Source of the DNA: Pseudomonas sp. PSB18 | GTDB lineage: Bacteria; Pseudomonadota; Gammaproteobacteria; Pseudomonadales; Pseudomonadaceae | Direction of reading: 5' to 3' | DNA: 64,000 nt | Assembly: GCF_014596565.1 (NCBI RefSeq) | Contig: NZ_NOIN01000001.1 | Coordinates: 248,001-312,000 of the forward strand | Shown: positions 26,220 to 40,593 of the stretch, piece by piece | Numbering within the stretch: position 1 is the first letter of the stretch | Layout of the letters: each line of letters begins with the position of its first letter | The notes under the pieces: generated by a model | What the model was told of the DNA's origin: nothing | Databases searched by the model: none | Seen by the model: only the letters and a program-made list of their open reading frames with translations | Program-made: the position numbers and the translations under genes

Positions 26220-29200
26220 TCAACGAAAATCGCGGCTGCGCACGTTGATGCCCGCCAGCAACCCGGTCAGGTCGCTCAGACGTCCGGCAATCAGATGACG
26301 GACTTCACCAACGCTTTCCCAGCGCCCGTCGACCCGAAGCAACTGCGAACCCACCAGGACTTTGCGTTGGCGCTCGGCCAGGTCGCGCCAGACCACCACA
26401 TTGAGGTTGCCGAATTCATCCTCCAGGGTAACGAAGGTCACTCCACTGGCCGTACCCGGACGTTGGCGACCGGTCACCAGACCGGCCACGCTGACGTTGC
26501 GGCCATGCTCCACCTCCTGCAATTCCCGGGAGCTGCGACAGCGGCGGGCACGCAGTTCAGGGCGCAGCAAGGCCAGCGGATGAGGGCCCAGTGTTGTGCC
26601 GAGGGTGGCGTAGTCGGCAAACAGATCTTCCCCCAACGAGGGCTTGGGCAGATTCACCGGCGGTTCCTCCTGACTGGGCAAACCGGCAAACAGACCCAAT
26701 TGCTTCTGCACGCCGGCCACTTCCCAGCGTGCACGATGGCGATCACCGACCAGGCCACGCAAGGCCCCGGCGTCGGCCAATTGTTCCTGGGCCCGGGCAT
26801 CGAGTTGCGCGCGCTCGCCCAGGTCGGCCACGTCAGTGAATGCCCGCTGCCGACGAGCCGCCTCGATACGCCGGGCGTCGTCTTCACGAAAGCCCTTGAT
26901 CAGGCGCAAGCCCATGCGAATCGCCGGTTGCCGACCTTCCTGGGGTTCGAGACTGCAATCCCAATCGCTGGCGCGCACGTCCACCGGACGGATCTGCAAT
27001 TGGTGCCGGCGGGCATCCTGCAGGATCTGGTCCGGGCTGTAGAACCCCATGGGCCAGCTGTTGATCAGGGCGCAGGCGAACGCTGCCGGCTCGTGGCATT
27101 TGAGCCAACTGCTGGCGTAGGTCAGCAAGGCGAAGCTGGCGGCGTGGGACTCCGGAAAACCGTAGTTGCCGAAGCCCTTGATCTGCTCGAAGATCTGCGC
27201 GGCGAACTCGGGGGTGTAGCGGTTGCGCGCCATTCCCTCTGCCAGGCGTAGACGGTGCGGTTCAAGCCCGCCGTGACGTTTCCAGGCGGCCATGGAACGG
27301 CGCAACTGGTCCGCTTCGCCGGCGGTATAGTCGGCCGCCACGATGGCGATCTGCATGACCTGTTCCTGGAATAACGGAATGCCCAGGGTACGTCCGAGCA
27401 CCTCCTCCAATTGCGGCGAAGGGTACGTGACGGGCTCCTCTTTATTTCGCCGCTTCAGGTACGGATGCACCATGCCGCCCTGGATCGGCCCCGGGCGCAC
27501 GATCGCCACTTCGATCACCAGGTCATAGAAATTCTCGGGCCTGAGCCGGGGCAACATCGCCATCTGAGCCCGTGATTCGATCTGGAACACACCGATGGTG
27601 TCCGCACGGCTGATCATCTCGAAGGTGGCGGCATCTTCACGGGGCAGACTCGCCAAAGTGTATCGCTGCCCCCGGTAGTGCTGGATCAGGTCAAAACATC
27701 GGCGAATCGCGCTGAGCATGCCCAGGGCCAGGATATCCACTTTCAACAGCCCGACCGCATCCAGGTCATCCTTGTCCCACTGGATGATGGTGCGCTCGGC
27801 CATGGCGGCGTTTTCCACCGGCACCAGGGTGTCCAGCGGCTGCTCGGAAATCACGAAGCCGCCGGGGTGCTGGGACAGGTGCCGGGGAAAGCCGATCAGT
27901 TGCTGGGTCAGGCTCAGCACTCGGCGCAAGATCGGAGTGTCCGGGTCGAAACCGCCCTCGCGCAGACGCTCCACGGGTGGCGCCTCATCGCTCCAGCGAC
28001 CGCAACAGTCGGCCAACGCATTGACCTGATCCGGCGGCAGGCCCAGGGCCTTGGCGACGTCCCGCACCGCCCCGGCGCCGTGGTAACTGCTGACCACCGC
28101 CGTCAATGCCGCGCGATGGCGACCGTAGCGCTGGAAGACGTATTGCAGCACCTCTTCGCGGCGTTCATGTTCAAAATCCACGTCGATGTCCGGCGGCTCG
28201 TTGCGCTCTCGGGACAGGAAGCGTTCGAACAACAGGTTGGTTCGGCTCGGGTCGATTTCGGTGATGCCCAGGGCATAACACACCGCCGAGTTGGCCGCCG
28301 AGCCACGTCCCTGGCAAAGGATATTGCGCTGGCGGGCAAATCTGACGATGTCCTGCACGGTGAGGAAGTAGCTGTCGTAACCCAGCTCGGCGATCAATTC
28401 CAATTCTTTGTCGATCTGTTCCCGGACCTTATCGTCTCCCCCTTTTCCCCAACGCTCGCGCAGGCCCCGTTCGGTCAGTTCCCGCAACCACGACGTCGGA
28501 TCATGCCCCTCGGGCACCAACTCCCGGGGGTATTCATAGCGCAACTGACCCAGGTCGAAGGTACAACGCCGGGCGATCGCCAGGGTTTCATCGAGCAACC
28601 GGCGGGGATAGAGATCGGCCAGATCCTTACGGCTGCGCAGATGGCGCTCGCCGTTGGGGTGCAGGCGCTGGCCGGCCTCAGCCACCGTGACGTGATGCCG
28701 GATGGCGGTCATGGTGTCCTGCAAGGCGCGACGGCCACGCACGTGCATGTGCACATCGCCCGTGGCGACGGCAGGCAGCGCCAGGCGGTCCGCCAGCGCC
28801 AACAAGTCGGCCAGGCGACGCCGGTCGTCCTGGCCGCAATGCAACTGCACCGACAGCCACAGGCGCCCGGCGAAGATCGACTGAAGCCAGCGGCCCTGCT
28901 CCTCGACCTCGTTGCCATCGGGTACCCATAGTGCCAACAACCCCGGCCAGGGATCGTCGAAGTCTTCCCGCACGATACGATAGCGGCCCTTCTCGCTGCG
29001 ACGGCGGGCACGGGTGATCAACCGGCACAAGGCTTGATAGCCCTCAAGGTTTTCCACCAGCAGCACCAGTTTCGGGCCGTTCTCGATCCGGATCTCGCTG
29101 CCGACGATCAACGGCAGGTTCAATTCCTTGGCCGCTTGCCAGGCCCGAACGATGCCGGCCAATGTGCACTCGTCGGTGATCGCCAGGGCCCGGTAGCCTT

Positions 29201-29297
29201 GCTGGCTGGCCCGGCGACACAGTTCCAAAGCACTGGAAGCGCCACGCTGGAAACTGAAATTCGACAGGCAATGCAGCTCGGCATAGTCGACGTTCAT
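26220..29297 (-). CDS. dnaE2: Error-prone DNA polymerase III alpha subunit DnaE2 (ImuC)
   Basis: The ATG at 29297 gives 1025 residues with the N-terminal PHP domain ([20 protein letters not shown]), the C-family catalytic aspartates region ([16 protein letters not shown]) and an OB-fold domain near the C terminus. DnaE2 performs translesion synthesis with ImuA and ImuB. It overlaps imuB by four bases (ATGA). It is the last gene of the lexA2-imuA-imuB-dnaE2 mutasome operon, which is damage-inducible in Pseudomonas. Confidence 0.96.
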
Positions 29298-30715
29298 GCG
29301 AACCAGCCCTGCAACCACAGCGGGCCGCCCTCGCCCACCGGTCGATAGGCCCAGCCCCGTTGTCCCGCAAGGGTTTCGACCAGGTAGTAATCGCGGCGCA
29401 CGTCGGCACCGTCCCACCAACCGGTTTCGATGCGCTCAGGCCCCATGAGGACGCGCGCCTGGCCTTCCGGCAGCGCCTGGGGTTCGTCCAGCAGCCAGCC
29501 GGGACGCTGCACACCGTTGCGTATCGCGCAGGCCTGGGGCCGGGGCTGAGGCGTCATCTGCCAGGCGCACTCGGGCCGGTGGTCGTCGCGAAACCCCAGT
29601 CCCTGCACTGCGTCGTCCCCCAACCGTGTGCGCAACCGCTCCCGCAGTTGCTCCCAGGGCAAGGACTGTTGGGGACGCTCATCGAACAGCTCCAGGCGCT
29701 GGGGCACGAAGCTCGGCAGGTCCTCGGCACACAAGCGAAAGCCGCGCACCGGTGCCTCGACCTGCACCTGTTCCAAACGGCCACGGGCCAGTTCGAAGAG
29801 CATCGAGGGGTCCCGTTCGGCACTGAGCAGGCCGACCTTGATGATCGTGTCCGGCAACCCGGCGTGTTCCAGGTGCAGGTCAAAACGCTGCACACCACTG
29901 TCACGGCCGCACAGGAAAGCCGACAGGTCACCGGTCAACCGGCGTAACGGGAACAGCAGCGCCTGATGGGACTGGACGTCGTAGTTGAGTTCGATGCGCA
30001 CATCGAAACGGTCCGGCGGCAGATAGAACGACAGCGCCAGGGAGCGACTGCCGATCAATGCGTCGAGGTGCTTGAGGACCTGGGCTTCGAAGCGCCGTGC
30101 CAGCGTGTGCCGGGGCAATGCCTGGACCTGTTCCAGGCAGCGCAACCCCATGCGCGACAACGCCGTGGCGACGTCGGGGGGCAGGCCGATCCGATCCACC
30201 GGCATCTGTCCCAGGCGTTGTCGCAGGCTCTCGGCATCCGCTACCACCAGGGCATCATGGGCATTGGCGAGCACCCGCGCCGCCACCGGGTTCGGGGCCG
30301 CGACGATGCGATGACGAAAGCCCAGTTCCGTCAGTTCGGCCCGCAGCCGTGCCTCGAAGACCGGCCAGGGCCCGAACAGGCCCAGGCTCGACTCGATCTC
30401 GAACAGCACCGTGCGTGGGTAATGCACGCTGACCTGGGAGCTGAACCGGTAAGCCCAGGCCGCCAGGAATTGCTGCCAGTGCTCGATCTGCGCGGCGTCG
30501 TATTCGGCGGTGGCAAAGCCTTTGCTCAGGGCCTGGGCGGCGGTCATGGTCTGGCCGGGACGCAGGCCCAGGGCCCGGGCGGGCCCGTTGACCGCTTGCA
30601 GCACCCGGCGCTGGGCCGGGCCGGTCAAAAGCGCCAGGGGTTCCTCGGGATCGGGGCGCTGACGCAGCGCGGCGTCCAGCGCCAATTGCGGGAAGAGAAT
30701 GCAGACCCAGCGCAT
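29294..30715 (-). CDS. imuB: Y-family polymerase-like protein ImuB
   Basis: The ATG at 30715 gives 473 residues ([20 protein letters not shown]). The protein resembles Y-family polymerases but, as is known for ImuB, lacks the usual catalytic acidic triad; instead it acts as the clamp-binding hub that recruits ImuA and DnaE2 during mutagenic repair. Palm/finger-like and little-finger-like regions cover about residues 1-330. It starts seven bases after imuA and overlaps dnaE2. Confidence 0.93.
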
Positions 30716-30722
30716 CGCAACC

Positions 30723-31352
30723 TCAATGCCCTGTTGACGTGGCGTGGGCAAAGGCAATCGGTGCCGAACGGACCAACCCGCCCCGGCATTTAAGCACGCG
30801 CAGTTGTCCGGGCCCGGCATCGATGGCAATGCGCAGGGCCGCCGGCGACGGATTGATGGCTTCCTGGATCGGGCGCCAGGCGAACGCCAGGGTCTGACCG
30901 GTTTCCGCGGCCACTTGCAGGCGGCGCAAGGCACGGTCATCCGCCTGACGCGGCCAGCACAGGACCGCCCCGCAACTGCCCGAACGCAGGCATTGTTCAG
31001 TGGCCCACAGGGCATCGCGCTCATCGGCCCGGATCACCGACAGCTGGCTCAGGTCCACCCCGGCGCTCTGCCAGGCCTGGGGATAGGGCACGAACGGCGG
31101 TGCCACCAACACGATCCGTTCCCCCTGCGCAGACAGTCGCGCCAGGGTCGGCCACACCAGTTGCAACTCACCCAGGCCCGGCGCGGCGAGGAGGATTTCC
31201 GTCAGCGCCGCTTCCGGCCAGCCACCACTGGGCAACGCCGCGTCCAGTGCGGCATGGCCGGTGGGTTGCGGGCTGGCGGCCGGAGGCGCAGGCCGACCTT
31301 TCCAGACCTGGCCGCCATTGAACAGCGTGTCCAGCGCAACGACCGCGCCCAT
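30723..31352 (-). CDS. imuA: SOS mutagenesis protein ImuA
   Basis: A 209-residue RecA/SulA-like protein (MGAVVALDTLFNGGQVWKGR...), with the ALPSGGWPEAALTEIL and ERIVLVAPP blocks typical of Pseudomonas ImuA. It is an accessory factor of the ImuB-DnaE2 mutasome and interacts with RecA in related systems. The start overlaps the lexA2 stop by one base (TGATG). Confidence 0.92.
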   Translation of the reverse strand: MGAVVALDTLFNGGQVWKGRPAPPAASPQPTGHAALDAALPSGGWPEAALTEILLAAPGLGELQLVWPTLARLSAQGERIVLVAPPFVPYPQAWQSAGVDLSQLSVIRADERDALWATEQCLRSGSCGAVLCWPRQADDRALRRLQVAAETGQTLAFAWRPIQEAINPSPAALRIAIDAGPGQLRVLKCRGGLVRSAPIAFAHATSTGH

Positions 31353-31969
31353 CAGCCTTGCCTCAACAGGCCACAGAACACCCCTTCTATCGCCAGGTCC
31401 TGGTCGGCCTCGACGATGATCGGCTGATAGGCCGGATTGCGCGGCAACAAGCGCACCCGCTCGCCGATTTGCTCGAAACGCTTGATGGTGACTTCGCCGT
31501 CGAGCCGCGCCACCACGATTTGTCCGTTCGCGGCCTGGGGCGTGCGCTGGACACCCACCAGGTCGCCGTCGAGGATGCCGTCGCCGATCATCGAATCGCC
31601 CTGGACCCGCAGTAGATAATCCGGCGCCTTGGTGAAAATCGCCGGGTCCAGCATCAGGCGATCGTGGACCTCGGCATCGGCGCCGATCGGCCGACCGGCG
31701 GCCACACGCCCCAGCACTGGCACGTCCAGCAGCTCGGGACGCGGTGGCTGGTTCAGCAAACGGATGCCCCGGGCCTGGTGCGGATTGACTTCGATAAAGC
31801 CGGCCTCGGTCAACGCCAGCACATGCTTGCGCGCCACGCTGCGGGAGGCGAAACCGAACGCCTCGCTGATTTCAGCGAGGCTGGGAGGCTGGCCCTGGTC
31901 GGCGATGCGTTCGCGGATGAAGGTCAGGATGGCGGCGCGGCGGGGGGTGAGAGTCGTCATGGAGTACAT
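31352..31969 (-). CDS. lexA2: Second LexA repressor (LexA2)
   Basis: A 205-residue LexA: N-terminal winged helix (about 1-65, SLAEISEAFGFASRSVARKH), self-cleavage site Ala-Gly in VLGRVAAGRP, catalytic Ser in GDSMIGDGILDGD and catalytic Lys in DGEVTIKRF. The start at 31969 has AGGAG five bases away; an ATG three codons later (31960) is too far from it. An 18-bp palindrome covers the start codon, so it very probably represses itself and the downstream imuA-imuB-dnaE2 genes, as known for LexA2 of P. putida. Confidence 0.94.
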   Translation of the reverse strand: MYSMTTLTPRRAAILTFIRERIADQGQPPSLAEISEAFGFASRSVARKHVLALTEAGFIEVNPHQARGIRLLNQPPRPELLDVPVLGRVAAGRPIGADAEVHDRLMLDPAIFTKAPDYLLRVQGDSMIGDGILDGDLVGVQRTPQAANGQIVVARLDGEVTIKRFEQIGERVRLLPRNPAYQPIIVEADQDLAIEGVFCGLLRQG

Positions 31970-31978
31970 TTGTACTCC
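31961..31978. promoter_or_regulatory. LexA2-type operator over the lexA2 start codon
   Basis: Perfect palindrome ggagtaca-tt-tgtactcc, containing GTAC-N4-GTAC. The LexA2 motif reported in P. putida is GTAC-N4-GTGC, one base different. It covers the start codon and part of the ribosome site, so bound repressor would block both transcription and initiation. Confidence 0.75.
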
Positions 31979-32035
31979 TGTCGGTTTTTTCTGACAAGCA
32001 CCACCAGTCAGTTCACCGGTCGGCAGTGCCGTCGC

Positions 32036-32062
32036 TATCGCGAGCAAGCTCGGCTCCCACAG
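32036..32062. repeat. Single REP copy
   Basis: One half-unit (tcgcgagcaagctcggctcccacag) between the DUF971 stop and lexA2. Confidence 0.7.
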
Positions 32063-32067
32063 GGGAC

Positions 32068-32346
32068 TCAGTGTTCAAACGCTGCCAGGTAAGCCCACGG
32101 ATAGATCCCGCGCTCATGCCCATCACTGAAGACCAATTGAACCCCATACCCCTGGGCATTGACTTCAACCACCCGAATCCGCGAATCGACCAACACCGCC
32201 AGCCCTTGCAGGCGAAACGCTCGGCACTGGGAGCATGGGCATTGGCGGCGCAGTTCGGCGTGGTCCAGCCGTTGTTCGCGACCATCGGGCCAATCGAGCC
32301 GCAATTGTCCCTTGCCTTGGGAATTACCAATCGCCAGCGGGTTCAT
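32068..32346 (-). CDS. DUF971 (GBBH-like N-terminal) protein
   Basis: A 92-residue single-domain DUF971 protein. The domain is the N-terminal part of gamma-butyrobetaine hydroxylase and also occurs at the end of the plant Fe-S scaffold HCF101. The metal-type motif CPCSQC (residues 36-41) and the ending GIYPWAYLAAFEH fit. It overlaps the HEAT-repeat gene by four bases (ATGA), so it is the eighth and last gene of the GntR/AprAB-like/ABC operon. A role in Fe-S maturation of the flavoenzyme or ferredoxin there is only an inference. Confidence 0.88.
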   Translation of the reverse strand: MNPLAIGNSQGKGQLRLDWPDGREQRLDHAELRRQCPCSQCRAFRLQGLAVLVDSRIRVVEVNAQGYGVQLVFSDGHERGIYPWAYLAAFEH

Positions 32347-33305
32347 CGCAACTGCTCCAGGGCAATGCGCACGGCTTTGCGCACTTCGGGGTCGCCATCG
32401 TCCTGGGCAGCCTGCAAGGCCGCAATGGCGCCTGGATCATGCAACTCCCCCAACGCCAGGGCCGCCTCCTTGCGCAGGTTGCTGATGGGATGCCCCAGGG
32501 TATCGATCAAGGGTTGCAACGCCGGGGCGTAGCGCAAGCGGCCAAGGCTGCGGGTGGCCCGCAGGCGCACTTGCCAATAATCGTCACCCAGCGCATCGAT
32601 CAGGGCCGGACCGGCCTCGCTGTGGCCGACCTTGCCCAGGGTGGTGGCCGCCTCCTCGCGCACCGACCAGATCGGGTCTCGCAGCGCCCGGCACAGCGCC
32701 GGCAAGACCCGTGGGTCCGAAGCCAGGCCCAGGGCACCGGTGGCCACTCGGCGCACCTCATTGTCCGGATCCTCACTGGCAAGCCTTGCCAGGGCCGGCA
32801 AGGCCTCAAGGTGTTTGAGCCACCCCAGCACCCCGACGGCCTCTCGGCGCACGCCGGCATCGCTATCGGCCAGGGCCGCGATCGCAGCCGGTGCAGCGTC
32901 CATCAGACGCAACTCGCGCAAGGCCCTGAACGCCGCAATACGCACACCGATATCCCCGTGGGCAGTCCAAGGCAGGATCACCCTCCCCGCCGCTTCGCTC
33001 TTGAGCAGGCTCAGGCTCTGGGCAGCAGCGGCCTGAACGGTCGAAGACGGATCGATCAGGGCTTGGCACAGGCCCTCGACCACCACCGTCTCTTCCCAGG
33101 CCTCAAGCAGTCGCGCCGCTTCGGCCCGCACCTCGTCACTGGGGTCCCGGCCCAGGCGATCCACCAGCCACGACAGGCCTTCAGGTTCTTCCAGGTCAGC
33201 CAGTTCAATCAGGGCAATACGGCGCACACCGGGATCGGCGTCAGTCAACCGCGGTTGCAGGAGGAGAATATCGTCGTTGTCGGTGCTTTCGAATAGAGAG
33301 GTCAT
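32343..33305 (-). CDS. HEAT-repeat protein (PBS-lyase-like)
   Basis: This 320-residue protein consists of about nine or ten HEAT-like helical repeats of about 31 residues (pattern DADPGVRRIALIELADL, DPSDEVRAEAARLLE, DSDAGVRREAVGVLGWL, DPEVRKAVRIALEQL). Such solenoids serve as binding scaffolds; no catalytic residues are evident. It overlaps the ABC ATPase gene upstream and DUF971 downstream by ATGA junctions, so its synthesis is locked to the transporter. It may assist assembly of the Fe-S flavoenzyme, but this is not shown. Confidence 0.9.
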   Translation of the reverse strand: MTSLFESTDNDDILLLQPRLTDADPGVRRIALIELADLEEPEGLSWLVDRLGRDPSDEVRAEAARLLEAWEETVVVEGLCQALIDPSSTVQAAAAQSLSLLKSEAAGRVILPWTAHGDIGVRIAAFRALRELRLMDAAPAAIAALADSDAGVRREAVGVLGWLKHLEALPALARLASEDPDNEVRRVATGALGLASDPRVLPALCRALRDPIWSVREEAATTLGKVGHSEAGPALIDALGDDYWQVRLRATRSLGRLRYAPALQPLIDTLGHPISNLRKEAALALGELHDPGAIAALQAAQDDGDPEVRKAVRIALEQLR

Positions 33306-34147
33306 AAGGCAAATCGCGGCAAGGAGGTTTCAGGGAGACCGAGGGGATTGAGACGCGGCAACTGCCGGCCCTCTTCATGGCGCAACAACTCGAGGCAGTG
33401 GCGTTTCAAACGGGTGAACTCGGGGTGGGTCACCAGCGCCGTCGTCCGTGGACGCGCAAAATCCAGTCGCAGGTCCTCGATGATCCGGCCGGGGCGCGGG
33501 CTCATCACCAGCAAGCGGTCGGCCAGGAACAGCGCCTCATCGATGTCATGGGTGACAAACACCACGGTGGTACGGATCCGTGTCCAGATGTCCAGCAGCA
33601 GCTCCTGCATGTGCAACCGGGTCAGGGCGTCCAACGCGCCGAAAGGCTCGTCCATCAGCAGCAGTCGCGGGCGATTGACCAGCACCCGGGCGATTTCCAC
33701 CCGTTGCTGCATCCCCCCGGAGAGCTGGTCCGGCCAATGCCCGGCAAAGCCTTCCAACCCCACCAGCGCGAGGATTTCATCGGCGGCGCGGTATCGCTCG
33801 GCCTTGCCGAGGCCACGCATCTTCAGGCCGAAAGCGACGTTGTCGCGCACACTGCGCCAGGGAAACAACGTGTGTTGCTGGAACACCATGCCCCGTTGGG
33901 GCGACGGCCCGGACACCGGCACACCGTCGACATTCAGGGTGCCGGCACGCGGTTGCAGATGCCCGGCCAAGGCGCCGAGCAAGGTGGATTTTCCGCAGCC
34001 GGACGGTCCCAGGACACAGACGAACTGGCCCGCTTCGATCTGGCAATCGAGCCTCTGAACCGCTTCGAACGCCTGGGCTCCCAGGCCCAGGACAATGGAC
34101 AGTTGACGGATATCGATCCGTCCTTCGGGCGTTTGCATCGCGCTCAT
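33302..34147 (-). CDS. ABC transporter ATP-binding protein (nitrate/sulfonate/taurine type)
   Basis: A 281-residue ATPase with Walker A GPSGCGKST, Q-loop, signature motif LSGGMQQRVEIARVLV, Walker B LLLMDEPFGALD and H-loop FVTHDIDEAL, the pattern of SsuB/TauB/NrtD ATPases. It overlaps the permease gene (TGATG) and the HEAT gene (ATGA). It powers import of the ligand captured by the binding protein encoded upstream. The substrate is unknown. Confidence 0.93.
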   Translation of the reverse strand: MSAMQTPEGRIDIRQLSIVLGLGAQAFEAVQRLDCQIEAGQFVCVLGPSGCGKSTLLGALAGHLQPRAGTLNVDGVPVSGPSPQRGMVFQQHTLFPWRSVRDNVAFGLKMRGLGKAERYRAADEILALVGLEGFAGHWPDQLSGGMQQRVEIARVLVNRPRLLLMDEPFGALDALTRLHMQELLLDIWTRIRTTVVFVTHDIDEALFLADRLLVMSPRPGRIIEDLRLDFARPRTTALVTHPEFTRLKRHCLELLRHEEGRQLPRLNPLGLPETSLPRFAL

Positions 34148-34929
34148 CAGGCTTTTCCTCGGGGTCGATGCCAGGGCGTGAACAGCCCGCCCAGGCGCTT
34201 GATCAACATACTGCTACCCATGCCCAGCACACCGATGAGCAGCATGCCGACCACGATGTCGGCGTAGTTCTGCACGGTGTAGGAGGCCCAGGTGTAGTAG
34301 CCGATGCCGTACTGGCCGGCGATCATCTCCGCCGTCACCAGGCAGAACCAGGACGTGCCCATGCCGATGGCCAGGCCGGTGATGATGCTCGGCGCCGCCC
34401 CCGGCAGGATCACTTCCTGCAGGATCGCCCGGCTCCCGGCCCCCAGGCTTTTCGCCGACGCGATCAGCCGCCGGTCCACGCCTTCGACGCCGTGCACGGT
34501 GTTGAGCAGGATCGGAAACAACGCGCCGGTGAAGGTGATGAACACCATCGACAGTTCCGACGAGGGAAACATCAGGATTGCCAGGGGAATCCAGGCTACC
34601 GCCGGGATCGGGCGCAGGACTTCCAGCGGTGGCAACAGCAGGTCTTCCGCCCATTTCGAACGACCGATGGCGAGGCCCACAGCCACACCGACCAACACCG
34701 CCGCGCCATATCCGGCAAAGACCCGCCCCAGGCTGCTGCCCAGGTGCCGGGCGAGATGGCCCGACTGACCCAGCCCAAGCGCAGCCTGGGTCACGGCCAG
34801 GGGCGTCGGGACGTTGGCGAAGGTCACCAGGCCGAGGTCCCAATGGCCGTCGGCGGCGAATTGCCAGAACAGCAGGCAGAACAGCAACGAGGCGGCTCGC
34901 GGGAGCCAGCGCAGGTAAGCTCGATTCAC
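34147..34929 (-). CDS. ABC transporter permease (SsuC/TauC type)
   Basis: A 260-residue integral membrane protein with about six hydrophobic segments and the BPD_transp_1 EAA-type loop near LIASAKSLGAGSRAILQEVILPGAAPSIITG. N-terminal MNRAYLRWLPRAASLLFCLL is a positively charged start followed by a helix. It belongs with the ATPase downstream and the binding protein upstream, from which it is separated by a REP pair (34953-35043). Confidence 0.92.
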   Translation of the reverse strand: MNRAYLRWLPRAASLLFCLLFWQFAADGHWDLGLVTFANVPTPLAVTQAALGLGQSGHLARHLGSSLGRVFAGYGAAVLVGVAVGLAIGRSKWAEDLLLPPLEVLRPIPAVAWIPLAILMFPSSELSMVFITFTGALFPILLNTVHGVEGVDRRLIASAKSLGAGSRAILQEVILPGAAPSIITGLAIGMGTSWFCLVTAEMIAGQYGIGYYTWASYTVQNYADIVVGMLLIGVLGMGSSMLIKRLGGLFTPWHRPRGKA

Positions 34930-34952
34930 AATTCTTCCTCTCGGCCGAGATC

Positions 34953-35043
34953 CTGTGGGAGCGAGCCTGCTCGCGATGGCGGTGTTCCCGTCACATCAGT
35001 TCCAACTGATCTGACGCCATCGCGAGCAGGCTCGCTCCCACAG
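34953..35043. repeat. REP inverted pair inside the GntR operon
   Basis: Opposed ctgtgggagcgagcctgct and agcaggctcgctcccacag copies lie between the binding-protein and permease genes. Such structures can stabilise the upstream mRNA and so raise the amount of binding protein relative to the membrane parts. Confidence 0.85.
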
Positions 35044-35056
35044 GTCATTTGGCAGG

Positions 35057-36460
35057 TTATCGGGTGGCTACGGCTTGGGCCGTGGCTTCGCTGAAATCCA
35101 GAACCCTGCCGCCCTGCTGCACGGCAAACTGCTCGGCCTGGCCCTTAAGCAGGAACGCGCTGAGCCGCCCTTTGCCATCACTGGCGAACCACGCCTGCTC
35201 GGCCAGCAGCTTGATCCCGCTGTCACTGGCCTGGGCATAGACCGCACGGATGCCTTTGCCTTCCTGCTTGAGGCTCGCCAGGGCAGCGAAAGCCGATTGC
35301 GCCGAAGCGTAGTGACGCACTTTCGGCTCGCCGCGCACCCAGATTTCGGCCACATGGCTGAAGTCGGTAATCGCCTGCCCGGTCGAAGCATCGACGCCGC
35401 TCAACGGTGTCCGGGCGTAGTGGCCCAGTTGCGCGGCGTAATCCAGGTTCGAGGCCTTGAACGCGGCACGGATGTACTGGTCATCGATGAAGGTATTGAG
35501 GTCCAGGCCACGATCAGCTTTCTTCAATAGTTTGAGGGTGTCGATGGCGGTGCCGACGGCTTGTCGATATTCCGGCTTCCAGGTCAGGTCACGGGTCTGC
35601 ACACCCAGCGGCCCGTGGAACAGATAGTTGACTTCGGCATCCACCCCGGTGACCTGGGCGATCAGCTCGCTGTACTTCTCCGGCTCGGCGGCCAGCAGCT
35701 GGTTGGCCTCGAGGGTTGCACGCAAGTAAGCGACGACGATCTCCGGGTATTTCCTGGCGTAGGCCTGGTCCACCAACGCACCGTGGAACGTCGGCGCGCC
35801 GGCCTGGGCGCCGTCGTAGATCTTGCGGGCGAAACCCCGGCTGGGGAACAGTTCGGCGAACGGCACGAAGTCGGCGTGGGCGTCGATCTTGCCGGCCTGC
35901 AAAGCCGAGCCGGCGACTTCCGGCGGCTGGGCGATGATGTTCACATCCTTGAGCGGATCCCAGCCCTGGGCCGCCACGGCACGCAGCAACATGCCGTGGG
36001 CGGTGGACGCAAACGGCACGGAGATCGTCTTGCCCTTGAGTTCGGCCAGGGACTGCACGCCGGACGCGCTGGGGACGACGATGCCATTGCCGCTGCCCTG
36101 GATACTGCCCGACAGCACGCTGATAAACAGGCTGTGTTTGCCGGCGGTTTCAAATGCCACGCCGTTGAATGCGCCGGGGAAATCGGCCATGGCACCGAAG
36201 TCGAGCTTGCCGGCAACCATCTCGTTGGTCAGGGGCGCACCGCTGGTGAAGTTCTTCCACTGGATATCGTACCGGGCGTCTTTATAGGCGCCGTCATGGG
36301 GCAGGTATTTGTCCAGCAGGCCCAGCTCACGGATCAACAACCCGCCGGCGGCGCAATTGATGGTGGTGTCCTGGGTGCCGATGGCGATACGGATGGTTTC
36401 TGCCTGGGCAGACAAGGTCAATGAAGCCAGTACCAGACCGGCCAGCGCTGCACGCAACAT
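35057..36460 (-). CDS. ABC substrate-binding protein with C-terminal NosL-like domain
   Basis: The ATG at 36460 gives 467 residues: signal peptide MLRAALAGLVLASLTLSAQA, an NMT1/SsuA-like binding domain (about 22-355), then an extra region (about 375-465; VRHYASAQSAFAALASL, AVYAQASDSGIKLL, AEQFAVQQGGRVLDFSEA) that resembles NosL, the copper-chaperone family of nitrous-oxide reductase. The usual NosL cysteine/methionine ligands are not visible, so metal binding is doubtful. The protein is about 130 residues longer than ordinary SsuA/TauA proteins. Ligand unknown; the nearby Fe-S flavoenzyme suggests it may be processed redox-wise. Confidence 0.88.
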   Translation of the reverse strand: MLRAALAGLVLASLTLSAQAETIRIAIGTQDTTINCAAGGLLIRELGLLDKYLPHDGAYKDARYDIQWKNFTSGAPLTNEMVAGKLDFGAMADFPGAFNGVAFETAGKHSLFISVLSGSIQGSGNGIVVPSASGVQSLAELKGKTISVPFASTAHGMLLRAVAAQGWDPLKDVNIIAQPPEVAGSALQAGKIDAHADFVPFAELFPSRGFARKIYDGAQAGAPTFHGALVDQAYARKYPEIVVAYLRATLEANQLLAAEPEKYSELIAQVTGVDAEVNYLFHGPLGVQTRDLTWKPEYRQAVGTAIDTLKLLKKADRGLDLNTFIDDQYIRAAFKASNLDYAAQLGHYARTPLSGVDASTGQAITDFSHVAEIWVRGEPKVRHYASAQSAFAALASLKQEGKGIRAVYAQASDSGIKLLAEQAWFASDGKGRLSAFLLKGQAEQFAVQQGGRVLDFSEATAQAVATR

Positions 36461-36590
36461 GGGGATTCCCCTCGAATCATGTATGGGAGGTTTCGTCTCC
36501 GCCGTGATCTGGGCACGGTGGGAAACGAGGGGTGTTTTTGGATCAGGCGTCCGGGGGTGGCCGGATGGCTTTGTAGTGACTGGGCTGGCC

Positions 36591-36689
36591 CCATCGCGAG
36601 CAGGCTCGCTCCCACAGTTTTCTTCAACGTTCACAGATTCGGCGTACACCACACATCCCATGTGGGAGCGAGCCTGCTCGCGAAAGCGG
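36591..36689. repeat. REP inverted pair
   Basis: Inverted REP copies (catcgcgagcaggctcgctc at 36592 and tgtgggagcgagcctgctcg at 36661) lie between the ferredoxin and binding-protein genes. Confidence 0.8.
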
Positions 36690-36698
36690 TTCTGAATG

Positions 36699-36944
36699 TC
36701 AGCGCAGCAAGTAAGGAATCTCCACTTTCACGGCGCCGGTCGGGCAGTCCTTTTCACATGGCATGCAGTACCAGCATTCATCAAACGCCATATAGGCCTT
36801 CTGGGTAGCCGGGTTGATCGCCAGCAGGTCCATGGGGCAGACATCGACACACACGGTGCAGCCCTTGTGGGCGATGCATTTGTCCTCGTCCACGGTGACG
36901 GGGGCATTGGAGCGGAAAAAGATTTCCTGGGGTTGATAAGCCAT
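36699..36944 (-). CDS. AprB-like ferredoxin with two [4Fe-4S] sites
   Basis: An 81-residue ferredoxin with two full cluster motifs: CIAHKGCTVCVDVCP (C-x5-C-x2-C-x3-C-P) and CWYCMPCEKDCP (C-x2-C-x2-C-x3-C-P). The first, with its five-residue insertion, and the layout match the N-terminal ferredoxin part of adenylylsulfate reductase beta subunit AprB, but the AprB tail is missing. It starts 24 bases after the flavoprotein stop, so the two very likely form a complex in which electrons pass between the clusters and FAD. Confidence 0.92.
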   Translation of the reverse strand: MAYQPQEIFFRSNAPVTVDEDKCIAHKGCTVCVDVCPMDLLAINPATQKAYMAFDECWYCMPCEKDCPTGAVKVEIPYLLR

Positions 36945-36968
36945 GGGTATTCTCTCTGGGTGGACGGT

Positions 36969-38714
36969 TCACGCCGCATCGGCGCCGACCCGCAGCCGCT
37001 CGTAAGCCTGCAGTTCGTCGGCATCGAGGGCGATGATGTAGGGCTCGACCGCTTTCTTGAATGAGGTCATCACGCCGTCGCCGCCCTTCTTCAGGTGACA
37101 ATGGCAAAACCACTCACTGTCATTGCGTTGCGGGTGATCGACCCGATAGTGGTACAACCCCCAACGGCTTTCGGCGCGAAACAGCGAGGCCCGGGCGGCC
37201 ATTTCGGCGCAGTCGCGGATCACGCTGACCTCCATGGCACGCATCAGCTCGTGAGCGTTGTGAGCCTTGATCTGGTCCAGGTCGCGCTGGATATCGCTGA
37301 AGCGTTGCAGGCCGATCTGCATCTTTTTAGTGACCTTCGGTGGTTGCAGGTAATCGTTGACGAAGCGCCGCAGCTTGTATTCCACCTGGGCCGGCGGCAG
37401 ACCGTGTTCGCGCGTCAGTGGTGCGTAGACGCGGGCCTTTTCCCGCTCGATCTGCCCGGCATCCAGCGCCGTGAAATCCTTTTCGGCCACGAAATCCGCC
37501 GCGTTGTGGCCGGCAAACCAGCCGTAGGTGAACGCCCCGAGCATGTAGTTGTGCGGCACCGCCGCCATGTCGCCGGCCGAGTACAGGCCCTTGACCGACG
37601 TCTCGGCCCGCTCGTTCACCCACACGCCCGAGGCCGAATGGCCGCTGCAGAAACCGATTTCGGAGATGTGCATTTCCACCATCTGCGTGCGGTAGTCGGT
37701 GCCGCGGTTGGCGTGGAACTGGCCGCGGCTGGGCCGCTCGTTGCTGTGCAGGATGTCCTCGATGGTCTGGATGGTTTCCTCGGCCAGGTGATCGAGCTTG
37801 AGGAACACCGGACCATTGCCGCCCTCGAGTTCCTGGTGGAACTCCCACATCATCTGCCCGCTCCAGTAGTCGCACTCGATGAAGCGCTCGCCCTTGTTGT
37901 TGGCGGTATAGCCGCCCAGGGGGCCGGTGACGTAGGCGCAGGCCGGGCCGTTGTAGTCCTTGATCAACGGGTTGATCTGGAAGCATTCCAGGTTCGCCAG
38001 TTCGGCGCCGGCATGGTAGGCCATGGCATAGCCGTCCCCGGCATTGGTGGGGTTCTCATAAGTGCCCATCAGGTAGCCGGAACTCGGCAAGCCCAGACGC
38101 CCCGCCGCCCCGCAGCACAAAATGACGGCCTTGGCCTTGATCACATGGAAGTCGGCGGTACGGCAATCGAAGCCCATGACGCCGTTCACCGCGCCCTCTG
38201 CATCCGTCAGCAAGCGGGTGCAGACCAGCCGGTTGGTGATGCTCACCCGCGCCCGTTTCAACTGGCGATAGAGGACTTTCTTGATGTCGTGCCCTTCCGG
38301 CATCGGCAGCACATAGGCGCCCATGTGATGGACCTTCTTCACCGCGTAGTCGCCGGTTTCGTCCTTCTCGAACTTCACGCCCCAGCGGTCCAGTTGCGAG
38401 AGGGTTTCGAAGCTGTGGGTCGCGTAGGCGTACACCGCCGCCTGGTTGACGATGCCGTCGTTGGCGATGGTGATTTCCTTGGTGTACTGCTCGGGTGTCG
38501 AGTGGCCGGGAATGATCGCGTTGTTCAAGCCGTCCATGCCCATGCTGATGGCGCCGCTGCGCTTGACGTTGGCCTTGTCCACCAGCAGCACGCGCAAATC
38601 GCGGTTGCGCTCCTTGGCCTTGATCGCCGCCATGGGGCCGGCCGTGCCGCCGCCGATGACGACAATGTCGTATTCCTGTTCCAAAGTGCTTCCAGTCACA
38701 GCGCTGTCAGTCAT
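36969..38714 (-). CDS. AprA-like / fumarate-reductase-family flavoprotein
   Basis: At 581 residues it opens with a Rossmann FAD site (YDIVVIGGGTAGPMAAI), carries the family segments AISMGMDGLNNAIIPGH and SGVWVNERAETSVKGLYSAGDMA, and ends in the capping helical domain with MTSFKKAVEPYI. The combination with a C-x5-C AprB-like ferredoxin resembles adenylylsulfate reductase AprAB rather than succinate dehydrogenase (no membrane anchor genes are present). No sat, dsr or qmo gene is nearby, so sulfate respiration is unlikely. It overlaps the GntR gene by ATGA. The substrate is unknown. Confidence 0.9.
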   Translation of the reverse strand: MTDSAVTGSTLEQEYDIVVIGGGTAGPMAAIKAKERNRDLRVLLVDKANVKRSGAISMGMDGLNNAIIPGHSTPEQYTKEITIANDGIVNQAAVYAYATHSFETLSQLDRWGVKFEKDETGDYAVKKVHHMGAYVLPMPEGHDIKKVLYRQLKRARVSITNRLVCTRLLTDAEGAVNGVMGFDCRTADFHVIKAKAVILCCGAAGRLGLPSSGYLMGTYENPTNAGDGYAMAYHAGAELANLECFQINPLIKDYNGPACAYVTGPLGGYTANNKGERFIECDYWSGQMMWEFHQELEGGNGPVFLKLDHLAEETIQTIEDILHSNERPSRGQFHANRGTDYRTQMVEMHISEIGFCSGHSASGVWVNERAETSVKGLYSAGDMAAVPHNYMLGAFTYGWFAGHNAADFVAEKDFTALDAGQIEREKARVYAPLTREHGLPPAQVEYKLRRFVNDYLQPPKVTKKMQIGLQRFSDIQRDLDQIKAHNAHELMRAMEVSVIRDCAEMAARASLFRAESRWGLYHYRVDHPQRNDSEWFCHCHLKKGGDGVMTSFKKAVEPYIIALDADELQAYERLRVGADAA

Positions 38715-39475
38715 GCTTGCGTTCCTTTTTGCCGGTCGATCCGCAAGCGGTACTGGAAAGCATCGCCGCGGTAATAGAGGTGTTCGAAGTCCAACGGCCG
38801 GCCATCGGCGTCGTGGGTCAGGCGCTCGATGCGCATGATGGGCGATCCCGGCTCGACCTCCAGGGCCTGGCTCAGATCGCTGTCGGCCAGCACCGCATCG
38901 ATGGCGAGGTCCGCGTGCCCCAGGGCCAAGGCGCAGTCGTTTTCCAGGATAAGGAAAATGTCTCGGGTCACCAGGTCGGCCTTCTCCAGGCGCTCGCCAA
39001 GGACCTTGGGCAGGTAAGTGATTTCCAGGGATACCGGCTCGCGGTTGATCAACCGCACCCGTTTGATCTGCGCCACCGGCTCCCCTTCGATCAACCCAAG
39101 GCGCTCGGCCACTTGTTTGTCCGCCGGGACGAATTTGAAACTGCGCAGGCGGTTGATCACCTCGAAGCCGCGCCCGGTCATGGATTCGGCCAGGCCCTGG
39201 AGGGTGCTGACGTTCTGGAACGTCTTGGGCTTGGCGACGAAGGTGCCTTTGCCGTGGATCTTGAAAATCAGCCCTTCCTTCTGCAGATCGCCGAGGGCCT
39301 GGCGCACGGTGATGCGGCTGACGCGAAATAACGTACCGAGCTCGCTTTCCGAAGGCATCTGGCTGCCCTGGGGGTATTCACCGTCGAGAATGCGGGCGCG
39401 CAACACGTCACGCAGTTGGGTGTGCAGTGGAACGCTGCTGAGGGCAAGCACATTGTCGGACATGGGCTGGATCAC
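38711..39475 (-). CDS. GntR-family regulator with UTRA domain
   Basis: From the GTG at 39475 the product has 254 residues (250 from the ATG at 39463). N-terminal winged helix (LPSESELG-like MPSESELGTLFRVSRITVRQAL) and C-terminal HutC-type UTRA ligand domain (GRPLDFEHLYYRGDAFQYRL) are clear. It is the first gene of the flavoprotein/ABC operon, overlapping it by ATGA, and an 18-bp palindrome stands directly before it, so it probably represses its own operon and responds to the imported substrate or a product. Confidence 0.93.
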   Translation of the reverse strand: MIQPMSDNVLALSSVPLHTQLRDVLRARILDGEYPQGSQMPSESELGTLFRVSRITVRQALGDLQKEGLIFKIHGKGTFVAKPKTFQNVSTLQGLAESMTGRGFEVINRLRSFKFVPADKQVAERLGLIEGEPVAQIKRVRLINREPVSLEITYLPKVLGERLEKADLVTRDIFLILENDCALALGHADLAIDAVLADSDLSQALEVEPGSPIMRIERLTHDADGRPLDFEHLYYRGDAFQYRLRIDRQKGTQA

Positions 39476-39477
39476 TT

Positions 39478-39495
39478 GTCATAACGAGTTATGAC
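39478..39495. promoter_or_regulatory. Operator candidate for the GntR regulator
   Basis: Perfect inverted repeat gtcataac-ga-gttatgac just upstream of the GntR start, flanked by further symmetric ATCAC (39471-39475) and GTGAT (39496-39500). Only 77 bases separate the two genes here, so the promoter must overlap this site. Confidence 0.7.
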
Positions 39496-39552: not shown

Positions 39553-40593
39553 TTAGCGAGCGTCGACGCCCTCGCTGCGAAACGCGCTGGGGCTCATCCC
39601 GGTCCAGCGCCGGAAGGCCCGGCGGAAACTGCGCACGTCGCTGTAGCCAACCTCTTCGGTGATGCGCTCGATGGACAGCTCGGGGTTGGCCAGCAGGCTC
39701 AGCGTCCGGCCACGACGCACCTGTTCGAGCAAGGCTTCGAACGTCAGGTTGTGCTCGGTCAGGCGCCGTCGCAGGGTGCGGCTGCTCATGTTGAGGTCGC
39801 CGGCGATTTTCTCGATGTGGCTGCCCCGGGTCAGGTCCCGGGCAATCGCCCGCTCCACCGCCTGGATCAGGTCGATCTTCTGATGGACCTCGGCCGCCTC
39901 CTGGTCCAGCAAGGCCAATGCCTGACGCAGGGCCAGCGGGTGATGATTGGGCAGGCGCACGTCCAACCAGCGGATATCGATCAGCATGCGATTGTATCGG
40001 CAACCGAAGCGCACCTCCGGCCCCAGGATCCGTTGGTACTCCAGGGCATAGGACGGCGCCGCGTGCATGAACTCTACGGCCAGGGGCCTGAAATCCGGGC
40101 CAGCCAGCGCCCGGCCATACACCATCAGGCTGGCGAAGAACTCTTCGACCGCAAACACCTGGACGTCGGCGAAGGGCAAGCGGCAGGTTGCGTCGACCAT
40201 GATCCGATCGACAGCCTCTTCGACACTGGTCACTGCGATGCCGCCGGTGGTGTGCTGATAACGGATCCCCAGGGCGAAGGCATCGCGCAGGGTTTCGCAC
40301 AGTGACAACACATGCCCCAGCAGGCCCAGGGTACCGAGCACGTTGCGGTCGCCGACCCACAATCCGAGTCCCTGGTCCGGCACCAGCTTGAGCGCCCGCT
40401 GGATCATGACCACGGCCTGGCGATGGGAAATGCGCTGGGCCGGATCTTGCAGATCGTCGAGGCCGAACCCCAGGCCGCGACACAGGCTGGCGGCGTCGAA
40501 CCCCTTGTCCGCCACGACTTCGGCCAGGGTTTGCAGCAGAAATGGCGAGACCAGCGCCAGCTCATAGGTAGGGTCGATGACTTTCATCTGCAT
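39553..40593 (-). CDS. sphR: AraC-family regulator, likely SphR (sphingosine-responsive)
   Basis: A 346-residue AraC/XylS-type protein with an N-terminal arabinose-binding-like (OruR/Arabinose_bd) domain and the C-terminal double helix-turn-helix (IEKIAGDLNMSSRTLRRRLT, then SIERITEEVGYSDVRSFRRA). It is divergent from an SphA-like outer membrane gene, and a PLP/FAD/cytochrome c trio like P. aeruginosa sphBCD lies beyond. That neighbourhood matches sphR-sphA-sphBCD, whose SphR activates these genes with sphingosine. The name rests on synteny and family, not on a sequence comparison. Confidence 0.8.
   Translation of the reverse strand: MQMKVIDPTYELALVSPFLLQTLAEVVADKGFDAASLCRGLGFGLDDLQDPAQRISHRQAVVMIQRALKLVPDQGLGLWVGDRNVLGTLGLLGHVLSLCETLRDAFALGIRYQHTTGGIAVTSVEEAVDRIMVDATCRLPFADVQVFAVEEFFASLMVYGRALAGPDFRPLAVEFMHAAPSYALEYQRILGPEVRFGCRYNRMLIDIRWLDVRLPNHHPLALRQALALLDQEAAEVHQKIDLIQAVERAIARDLTRGSHIEKIAGDLNMSSRTLRRRLTEHNLTFEALLEQVRRGRTLSLLANPELSIERITEEVGYSDVRSFRRAFRRWTGMSPSAFRSEGVDAR

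Follow-up and report, generated by a model that had tools for sequence, protein, structure and literature searches.

Layout and conservation of the operon

The window analysed here is a stretch of 64,000 nucleotides from Pseudomonas sp. PSB18, and its minus strand carries eight open reading frames (ORFs) in one direction between positions 32068 and 39475. The operon is conserved and apparently uncharacterised, and its enzyme is AprAB-like in sequence. ORF and Pfam scans recovered every frame of the first-pass annotation, from GntR to DUF971, with domains that match the names given. The first gene encodes a GntR/UTRA (HutC-type) regulator (38711-39475; Pfam UTRA 134 bits, GntR 67 bits), a probable autorepressor, and a candidate operator is located at 39474-39495. 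It is followed by a flavin adenine dinucleotide (FAD) flavoprotein of the AprA/fumarate reductase (FRD) superfamily (36969-38714; NF006131/PRK08275), the predicted catalytic subunit, and by an AprB-like 2[4Fe-4S] ferredoxin (36699-36944; Fer4_7), the predicted electron-transfer subunit. The next three genes encode an ATP-binding cassette (ABC) importer, which consists of an SsuA/TauA-type binding protein with a NosL-like C-terminal domain (35057-36460, longest frame 35057-36661; NMT1), a permease of the SsuC/TauC/NtrB type (34147-34929; BPD_transp_1) and an ATPase (33302-34147). The last two products are a HEAT-repeat solenoid (32343-33305; HEAT_2, and 117 bits with the HEAT part of PRK13800) and a DUF971 (GBBH-like_N) protein (32068-32346; PF06155, 76 bits), a probable helper of iron-sulfur (Fe-S) maturation.

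Most neighbouring genes had been claimed to overlap. Overlaps were found at four of the seven junctions (4, 1, 4 and 4 bases), so that "most" barely holds. The other three junctions are gaps of 24, 37 and 127 bases; with 36460 as the start of the binding protein, the gap of 37 widens to 238. Both gaps flanking the binding-protein gene (34930-35056 and 36590-36698) contain REP-like motifs in inverted orientation. Therefore, tight coupling is not continuous across the whole operon. Promoter and terminator scans of the operon gave results no better than those from shuffles.

Three sets of loci, which may have species in common, were compared. The best 80 listed loci of a genome scan were kept, and 74 of them were usable; six were dropped for less than 6.5 kb downstream. 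All 20 loci of a Pseudomonadota sample were usable, as were 17 of 18 plasmid loci, one being dropped for the same reason. The flavoprotein, the dicluster ferredoxin and the HEAT protein occurred together in 111 of the 111 usable loci (74/74, 20/20 and 17/17, respectively). It is therefore unlikely that the ORFs are a chance set, and the expectation that the gene set is conserved together in other genomes was borne out. Among the 74 usable loci of the best 80 listed, GntR was present in 73, DUF971 in 70, all eight genes in 63 and all three importer parts in 65, the importer scoring being dependent on identity thresholds set by us, below which two actinobacterial binding proteins score, and the ATPase scored at loci L068-L070 belonging to a neighbouring transporter. 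All 20 sampled Pseudomonadota loci had DUF971 and 18 had the importer, whereas 9 carried GntR and 10 carried a regulator of the Crp type. Since the triad is constant and the other parts vary, the conserved core is composed of the flavoprotein, the ferredoxin and the HEAT protein, and the importer, DUF971 and the regulator are replaceable. A single frame encodes both flavoprotein and HEAT in two actinobacteria, Tsukamurella and Nonomuraea, with the HEAT part recognised in both. The distribution of the flavoprotein family is patchy (21 of 398 Pseudomonadota genomes and 10 of 212 genera, window genome counted in). Plasmid records place the gene set also in cyanobacteria and actinobacteria, and the Pseudomonadota sources are soil, root-nodule and clinical.

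Several loci depart from this layout. A plasmid of Acidithiobacillus caldus, typed as mobilizable, carries GntR, flavoprotein, ferredoxin and HEAT with FdxA replacing the importer and DUF971 (L091:6361-10425). The HEAT gene directly follows the ferredoxin gene in Variovorax, where an FdxA-like frame is located ahead of the importer (L145:11887-16922), and FdxA-like genes are also near the operon in L127, L129, L135 and L136. An FdxA-like protein is a possible electron partner. In Nostoc edaphicum (L089:10704-13885), the flavoprotein and ferredoxin genes are separated by five others, annotated as two HAD hydrolases, a methyltransferase, a GNAT and a VOC protein, and an amidase gene is downstream at this locus. 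Matches in the phage collection resemble bacterial DNA or a distant homologue. Two records named Acinetobacter phage (CAKLQF020000010.1 and CAKLQH020000018.1) hold a homologue over 98% of the flavoprotein with 78.5% identity; they are probably bacterial contigs mislabelled as phage.

The flavoprotein-ferredoxin pair and its partners

The flavoprotein scores 1134 bits with NF006131, above the curated cut-off of 587, and so belongs to this family. The names of NF006131 and PRK13800 (NF010374) give a generic product and no substrate; PRK13800 is a longer model, the C-terminal part of which matches the HEAT protein of the window. The nearest solved relatives of the family profile are the alpha subunit of 3'-phosphoadenosine 5'-phosphosulfate (PAPS) reductase from Methanothermococcus (MtPAPSR; 8a8o, 282 bits), the adenosine 5'-phosphosulfate (APS) reductase of A. 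fulgidus (AfAPSR; 205 bits) and E. coli SdhA (134 bits). The 8a8o enzyme reduces PAPS and has an architecture in common with APS reductase, according to the accessible text of PMC10322725.

The pair had been described as AprAB-like in the first-pass annotation; its designation as AprAB was not supported. The flavoprotein missed the cut-offs of both AprA families (193.4 bits against 641.75 for TIGR02061, and 291.9 against 557 for NF005331). Residue positions were counted by hand from the printed profile alignment, in which Arg265 and Trp234 of AfAPSR, which we take to be APS active-site residues, correspond to Leu250 and Tyr219 of the window flavoprotein; 8a8o retains the Arg. Membership of AprAB was therefore rejected. 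The NCBI product name of the window protein is that of a succinate dehydrogenase (SDH)/FRD flavoprotein, with which it has FAD-domain and C-terminal-domain families in common. Membership of this group was also rejected because, among the SdhA residues presumed to be catalytic in SDH/FRD, His242 corresponds to Asn248, and Arg286 and Arg399 are in insertions without counterpart. Strictly invariant stretches specific to the family were seen in an alignment of 19 sequences, L096 being left out, and the family has its own loop, KKVHHxGxYVLPMPEG, at the position of Glu141-Gln145 in AfAPSR. The AlphaFold model of the flavoprotein was too poor for a fold search, with a mean predicted local distance difference test (pLDDT) of 48.2.

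The ferredoxin carries the cluster sites C-x5-C-x2-C-x3-C and C-x2-C-x2-C-x3-C, and it matches the APS reductase beta subunit 3gyx_B. The Trp of its DECW motif was kept in all ten family members aligned. The window ferredoxin thus possesses the electron-transfer Trp of the AprAB beta subunit. Trp42 of MtPAPSR, named in the accessible text of PMC10322725, aligns to this residue only through 3gyx_B. The FAD alpha subunit, the 2[4Fe-4S] beta subunit and the Trp between them are common to the window pair, MtPAPSR and AprAB. The available part of PMC11485676 lists, without comment, a flavoprotein and a ferredoxin of Pseudomonas kribbensis with identities of 30 and 34% to the subunits of PAPS reductase. 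Neither sat nor qmo nor dsr is among the eight operon genes, to which this inspection was confined. The window genome has two PF01507 genes, presumably of the CysH/CysD type, so that a second APS reductase seems unnecessary.

The DUF971 position is held by an annotated Mrp/NBP35 protein in all four cyanobacterial records, and a domain check of one of these proteins gave FeS_assembly_P and ParA-type domains. This replacement supports a role of DUF971 in cluster loading, for which it is a probable helper. Considering also the fusion of HEAT with the flavoprotein in two actinobacteria, the earlier proposal that the HEAT and DUF971 proteins help assembly is plausible.

The importer and its regulator

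For the binding protein, a start at 36460 is more probable than one at 36661, where the longest frame begins, because a signal-peptide-like stretch follows the former. Its nearest profiles are SsuA and TauA, with 125.3 bits against the SsuA family TIGR01728, under the cut-off of 163.5. Sequence matches were obtained with 3e4r, TauA and E. coli SsuA; 3e4r is named a nitrate transport protein in this search and Xanthomonas SsuA in the fold search. TauA and SsuA also ranked first in the Foldseek search, for which the model had a moderate pLDDT of 63.0, and Thi5 and nitrate/bicarbonate-binding proteins were among the other fold matches. The permease had 16 NCBIfam matches, all under cut-off, and the best match of the ATPase was the taurine ATPase, with 265 bits against 357. 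By profile and fold, SsuABC and TauABC are the nearest importer families, from which the window importer differs in its scores below the curated cut-offs and in its extra NosL-like domain. The claim of an SsuABC/TauABC-type importer is thus supported, as a sulfonate-type importer, by profile, sequence and fold. The importer is not obligatory, being complete in 65 of the 74 usable loci of the best 80 listed.

The C-terminal domain of the binding protein (35060-35500) has a borderline resemblance to NosL PF05573, with 22.5 bits against a cut-off of 24. Among six C-terminal pieces compared, those of L094, L088 and L092 scored 22.7, 25.4 and 30.1 bits, besides that of the window, and those of L090 and L096 had no match. 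No NosL structure was among the 50 fold matches listed for the binding-protein model (pLDDT 63.0). NosL is a copper protein family.

A perfect 8-2-8 inverted repeat (39478-39495) overlaps a conserved 16-mer, ACTYGTYATRACAAGT (39474-39489), across the start region of GntR. Since the listed GTG overlaps this candidate operator, the in-frame ATG at 39463, four codons further on, is the likelier GntR start. The operator was surveyed in 97 loci, one of them without a GntR match. Allowing one mismatch at most, it was found in 73 of the 74 loci whose GntR is at least 75% identical, the window counted in, and with at most two mismatches in 15 of the 19 loci with 55-75% identity. It was absent from the three more distant loci and from shuffled upstream regions (one shuffle each). 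In the window genome and in six relatives, the pattern matched a single site at one mismatch or fewer, and this site adjoined the operon in all seven genomes; a larger GntR regulon was rejected on this basis. A second site appeared in the window genome at two mismatches, a setting at which a reversed control pattern yielded more sites than the pattern itself. One operator site per genome, beside the operon, makes the regulator look local and autoregulatory.

A LysR regulator lies next to the operon in cyanobacteria, and its C-terminal half is a homologue of the binding protein encoded in the operon, with 32 and 37% identity and E values of 1e-51 and 1e-60 in the two pairwise comparisons (L088:6637-8652 and L097:6379-8415). 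A third cyanobacterial LysR with such a half was found by tblastn (L138:6652-8652). Given the binding-protein copy in these regulators, it is plausible that the imported ligand acts as the inducer. Three Crp-type regulators adjoining rhizobial operons have no cysteine cluster.

Minus-strand frames at 26220-32047 adjoin the operon and, by inspection, resemble a dnaE2-imuB-imuA-lexA mutagenesis cassette; related LexA genes are near the operon in many relatives. Upstream, at 39553-40593, there is an AraC-type regulator, nearest to QhpR in NCBIfam with a score under cut-off, and a related gene is near many Pseudomonas operon loci.

Organosulfur compounds as the predicted substrate

The neighbourhood of the operon was examined with nine organosulfur/sulfite queries in the 20 sampled loci (about 20 kb each), a hit requiring half of the query covered at E 1e-8. 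The controls were 37 stretches of the same genomes (40 were sought, and one was only 13 kb), taken from 19 of the 20. A sulfur neighbour, YeiH in six cases and TauD in two, was found in 8/20 loci and in 0/37 controls (Fisher p 7.6e-5, a value that overstates independence). Six of the 24 YeiH copies in the sampled genomes sit in operon loci, where about 0.08 would be expected by a hand calculation from genome sizes. Three of four cyanobacterial records have YeiH and TauE/SafE annotated next to the operon, and TauE/SafE adjoins it in Rhizobium N324 and Aquabacterium. Other loci carry TauD with sulfate and sulfonate transporters (Sinorhizobium), SfnB- and NtaA/DmoA-type genes (Cupriavidus), an SsuD-type gene with metY and metX, the latter two named by inspection (Nonomuraea), or TauD with a related ABC transporter (several of the P. 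putida group). An ammonium transporter/glnK pair is at one annotated plasmid locus.

There is a precedent for such a set of genes. The asfRABC genes of P. putida S-313, which comprise a reductase/ferredoxin, a binding protein and an ABC transporter, are required for the use of aromatic-sulfonate sulfur, as far as the accessible text of a review goes (PMC4267179). In C. metallidurans CH34, asfA and asfB are Rmet_4334/5 in the available part of PMC2864759. At 923-930 kb, CH34 has a flavoprotein and a ferredoxin gene together with an SsuABC-type transporter, and we infer that this pair is the asfA/asfB candidate; the position came from interpolation and not from annotation, with six TauD tags assigned in order to six TauD positions, which puts the tags near 924 kb. 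A second FRD-type flavoprotein about 30 kb off (895 kb) was passed over, as the iron-sulfur protein paired with it is not a simple dicluster ferredoxin. Like the window operon, asf combines an SsuA-type importer and a dicluster ferredoxin with an FAD flavoprotein from the same superfamily. On the other hand, the CH34 candidates are only 23% (flavoprotein) and 32% (ferredoxin) identical to those of the window, the AsfB candidate has Gln at the Trp site, asf has LysR where the window operon has GntR, and no HEAT or DUF971 match was found in 20 kb around the CH34 pair. The best match of the AsfA candidate in the window genome is the window flavoprotein, at 26% identity. Orthology of this flavoprotein with AsfA was rejected in view of the 23% identity to the CH34 candidate. 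Judged by sequence, the window operon resembles asf in its parts list, yet it is not asf. The literature search, whose coverage left out most subscription papers, found no description of the gene set. The available parts of PMC2996968, PMC7661421, PMC8557817, PMC10433965, PMC12892962, PMC8792954, PMC3506598 and PMC10441942 deal with other sulfur genes or cite asf and do not name the operon, and asfA primer sequences were not found in the available part of PMC9694294.

We propose that the operon may encode an organosulfur importer together with an FAD/Fe-S enzyme predicted to release sulfite, a reading to which we give a probability of about 0.5. It is supported by the similarity of the binding protein to SsuA and TauA, by the sulfur neighbours in several lineages, by the sulfite-forming PAPS reductase as the closest solved enzyme and by the asfAB precedent, as well as by the constant triad with its flavoprotein-HEAT fusion and the Trp kept family-wide in the ferredoxin. 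The confidence in the sulfur theme alone is somewhat higher than that in the full mechanism. In the proposed mechanism, the SsuA/TauA-type importer would take up a sulfonate-like compound. Electrons would then pass in the cytoplasm through the two [4Fe-4S] clusters and the conserved Trp to the FAD of the flavoprotein-ferredoxin complex, and the sulfur would leave the substrate as sulfite, to be used in cysteine synthesis or, in excess, exported. The HEAT protein may be a structural partner of the complex, and DUF971 (or Mrp/NBP35) would assist the loading of its clusters. GntR would keep the operon repressed from its single operator as long as neither the substrate nor a derivative is bound. 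The earlier suggestion that an FAD/Fe-S enzyme acts on an imported sulfur compound is thus plausible, given the importer type, the sulfur neighbours and the co-conserved set.

Several observations weigh against this proposal. The sulfur queries were picked after the plasmid loci had been inspected, the eight positives span only three of ten genera, and 12 of the 20 sampled loci have no sulfur-query neighbour. The three TauE queries, SfnB, NtaA, SsuD and the sulfate-binding query matched none of the sampled loci, and metY and metX matched none of them and one of the 37 controls each. The 64-kb window itself has no match to the sulfur queries beyond the operon's own genes. Compared with NCBIfam, the NtaA/DmoA neighbour alone passes; the others are short of their cut-offs (YeiH 219/233, SsuD 453/518, TauD 224/313 and SfnB 223/431 bits), and the TauE/SafE names come from annotation only. 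The importer is incomplete or missing in 9 of the 74 usable loci of the best 80 listed, and neither its binding protein nor its permease nor its ATPase reaches the cut-off of any NCBIfam family listed, 25 of 186 being listed for the ATPase. In Rhizobium N324, the operon has the thiamine genes thiC, thiO and thiS as neighbours. The P. putida ferredoxin PP_0206 is presumably the orthologue of the window ferredoxin. The sole expression record found for it is a 7.5- to 8.5-fold increase by zinc, in the accessible text of PMC6066579.

Other explanations were weighed on the same evidence. The 282 bits with 8a8o and the Trp of the AprB-like ferredoxin could point to an AprAB-type APS/PAPS reductase of sulfate assimilation, as in Methanothermococcus. 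However, the Arg and Trp presumed to serve the APS site are replaced in the flavoprotein, the Arg even being retained in 8a8o, both AprA cut-offs are far above its scores, the genome already has its two presumed CysH/CysD-type genes, and a nucleotide substrate needs no importer; this explanation is highly improbable. The asf case suggests another role, because the accessible text of PMC4267179 assigns electron transfer for oxygenation to its reductase/ferredoxin. The window pair, as proposed for asfAB, might supply electrons to a separate SsuD- or TauD-like oxygenase and not cleave the substrate itself, and monooxygenase- or TauD-type genes do adjoin some loci. We consider this unlikely, since no oxygenase is among the eight genes, the oxygenase queries (TauD, SfnB, NtaA and SsuD) match only two of the 20 sampled loci, and the long invariant stretches of the flavoprotein family suggest a substrate of its own.

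The annotated sulfite/sulfate exporters beside the operon (YeiH and TauE/SafE) would also fit a flavoenzyme that oxidises or traps sulfite while the transporter serves another purpose, and relatives of APS reductase bind sulfite at FAD. With all three importer parts in 65 of the 74 usable loci (best 80 listed) and the binding protein duplicated in the cyanobacterial regulator, such sulfite handling is very unlikely. A substrate free of sulfur, such as a thiamine or pyrimidine precursor, a nitrogen compound or a carboxylate, is distinctly unlikely as well. The NMT1/THI5-like binding protein with its Thi5 and nitrate/bicarbonate-binding fold matches, the thiamine genes in one Rhizobium and the FRD superfamily membership speak for it. 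Against this, sulfur-type neighbours recur across several phyla, whereas thiamine genes are at one annotated locus and were not searched for elsewhere, and the residues for succinate or fumarate are absent from the flavoprotein.

A more specific form of the organosulfur proposal is tentative and rather unlikely. The complex of flavoprotein, ferredoxin and HEAT protein might represent a functional branch of its own, the third in the AprA/fumarate-reductase superfamily, namely an oxygen-independent desulfonase. An imported sulfonate (or another R-SO3 compound) would be attacked at its sulfur by reduced FAD, and sulfite would be released by means of the AprAB electron path. Cyanobacteria would sense the same ligand through the regulator with its captured binding-protein copy. 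Sulfonates and sulfate esters are the major forms of organic sulfur in soil, as stated in the accessible text of the review (PMC4267179). The flavoprotein of the set currently bears the label fumarate reductase/succinate dehydrogenase. Should the system liberate sulfur from sulfonates, it would provide a missing desulfurisation route, the scaffold of APS reductase would have been reused on organic substrates, and the flavoprotein family would be a misannotated group of enzymes.

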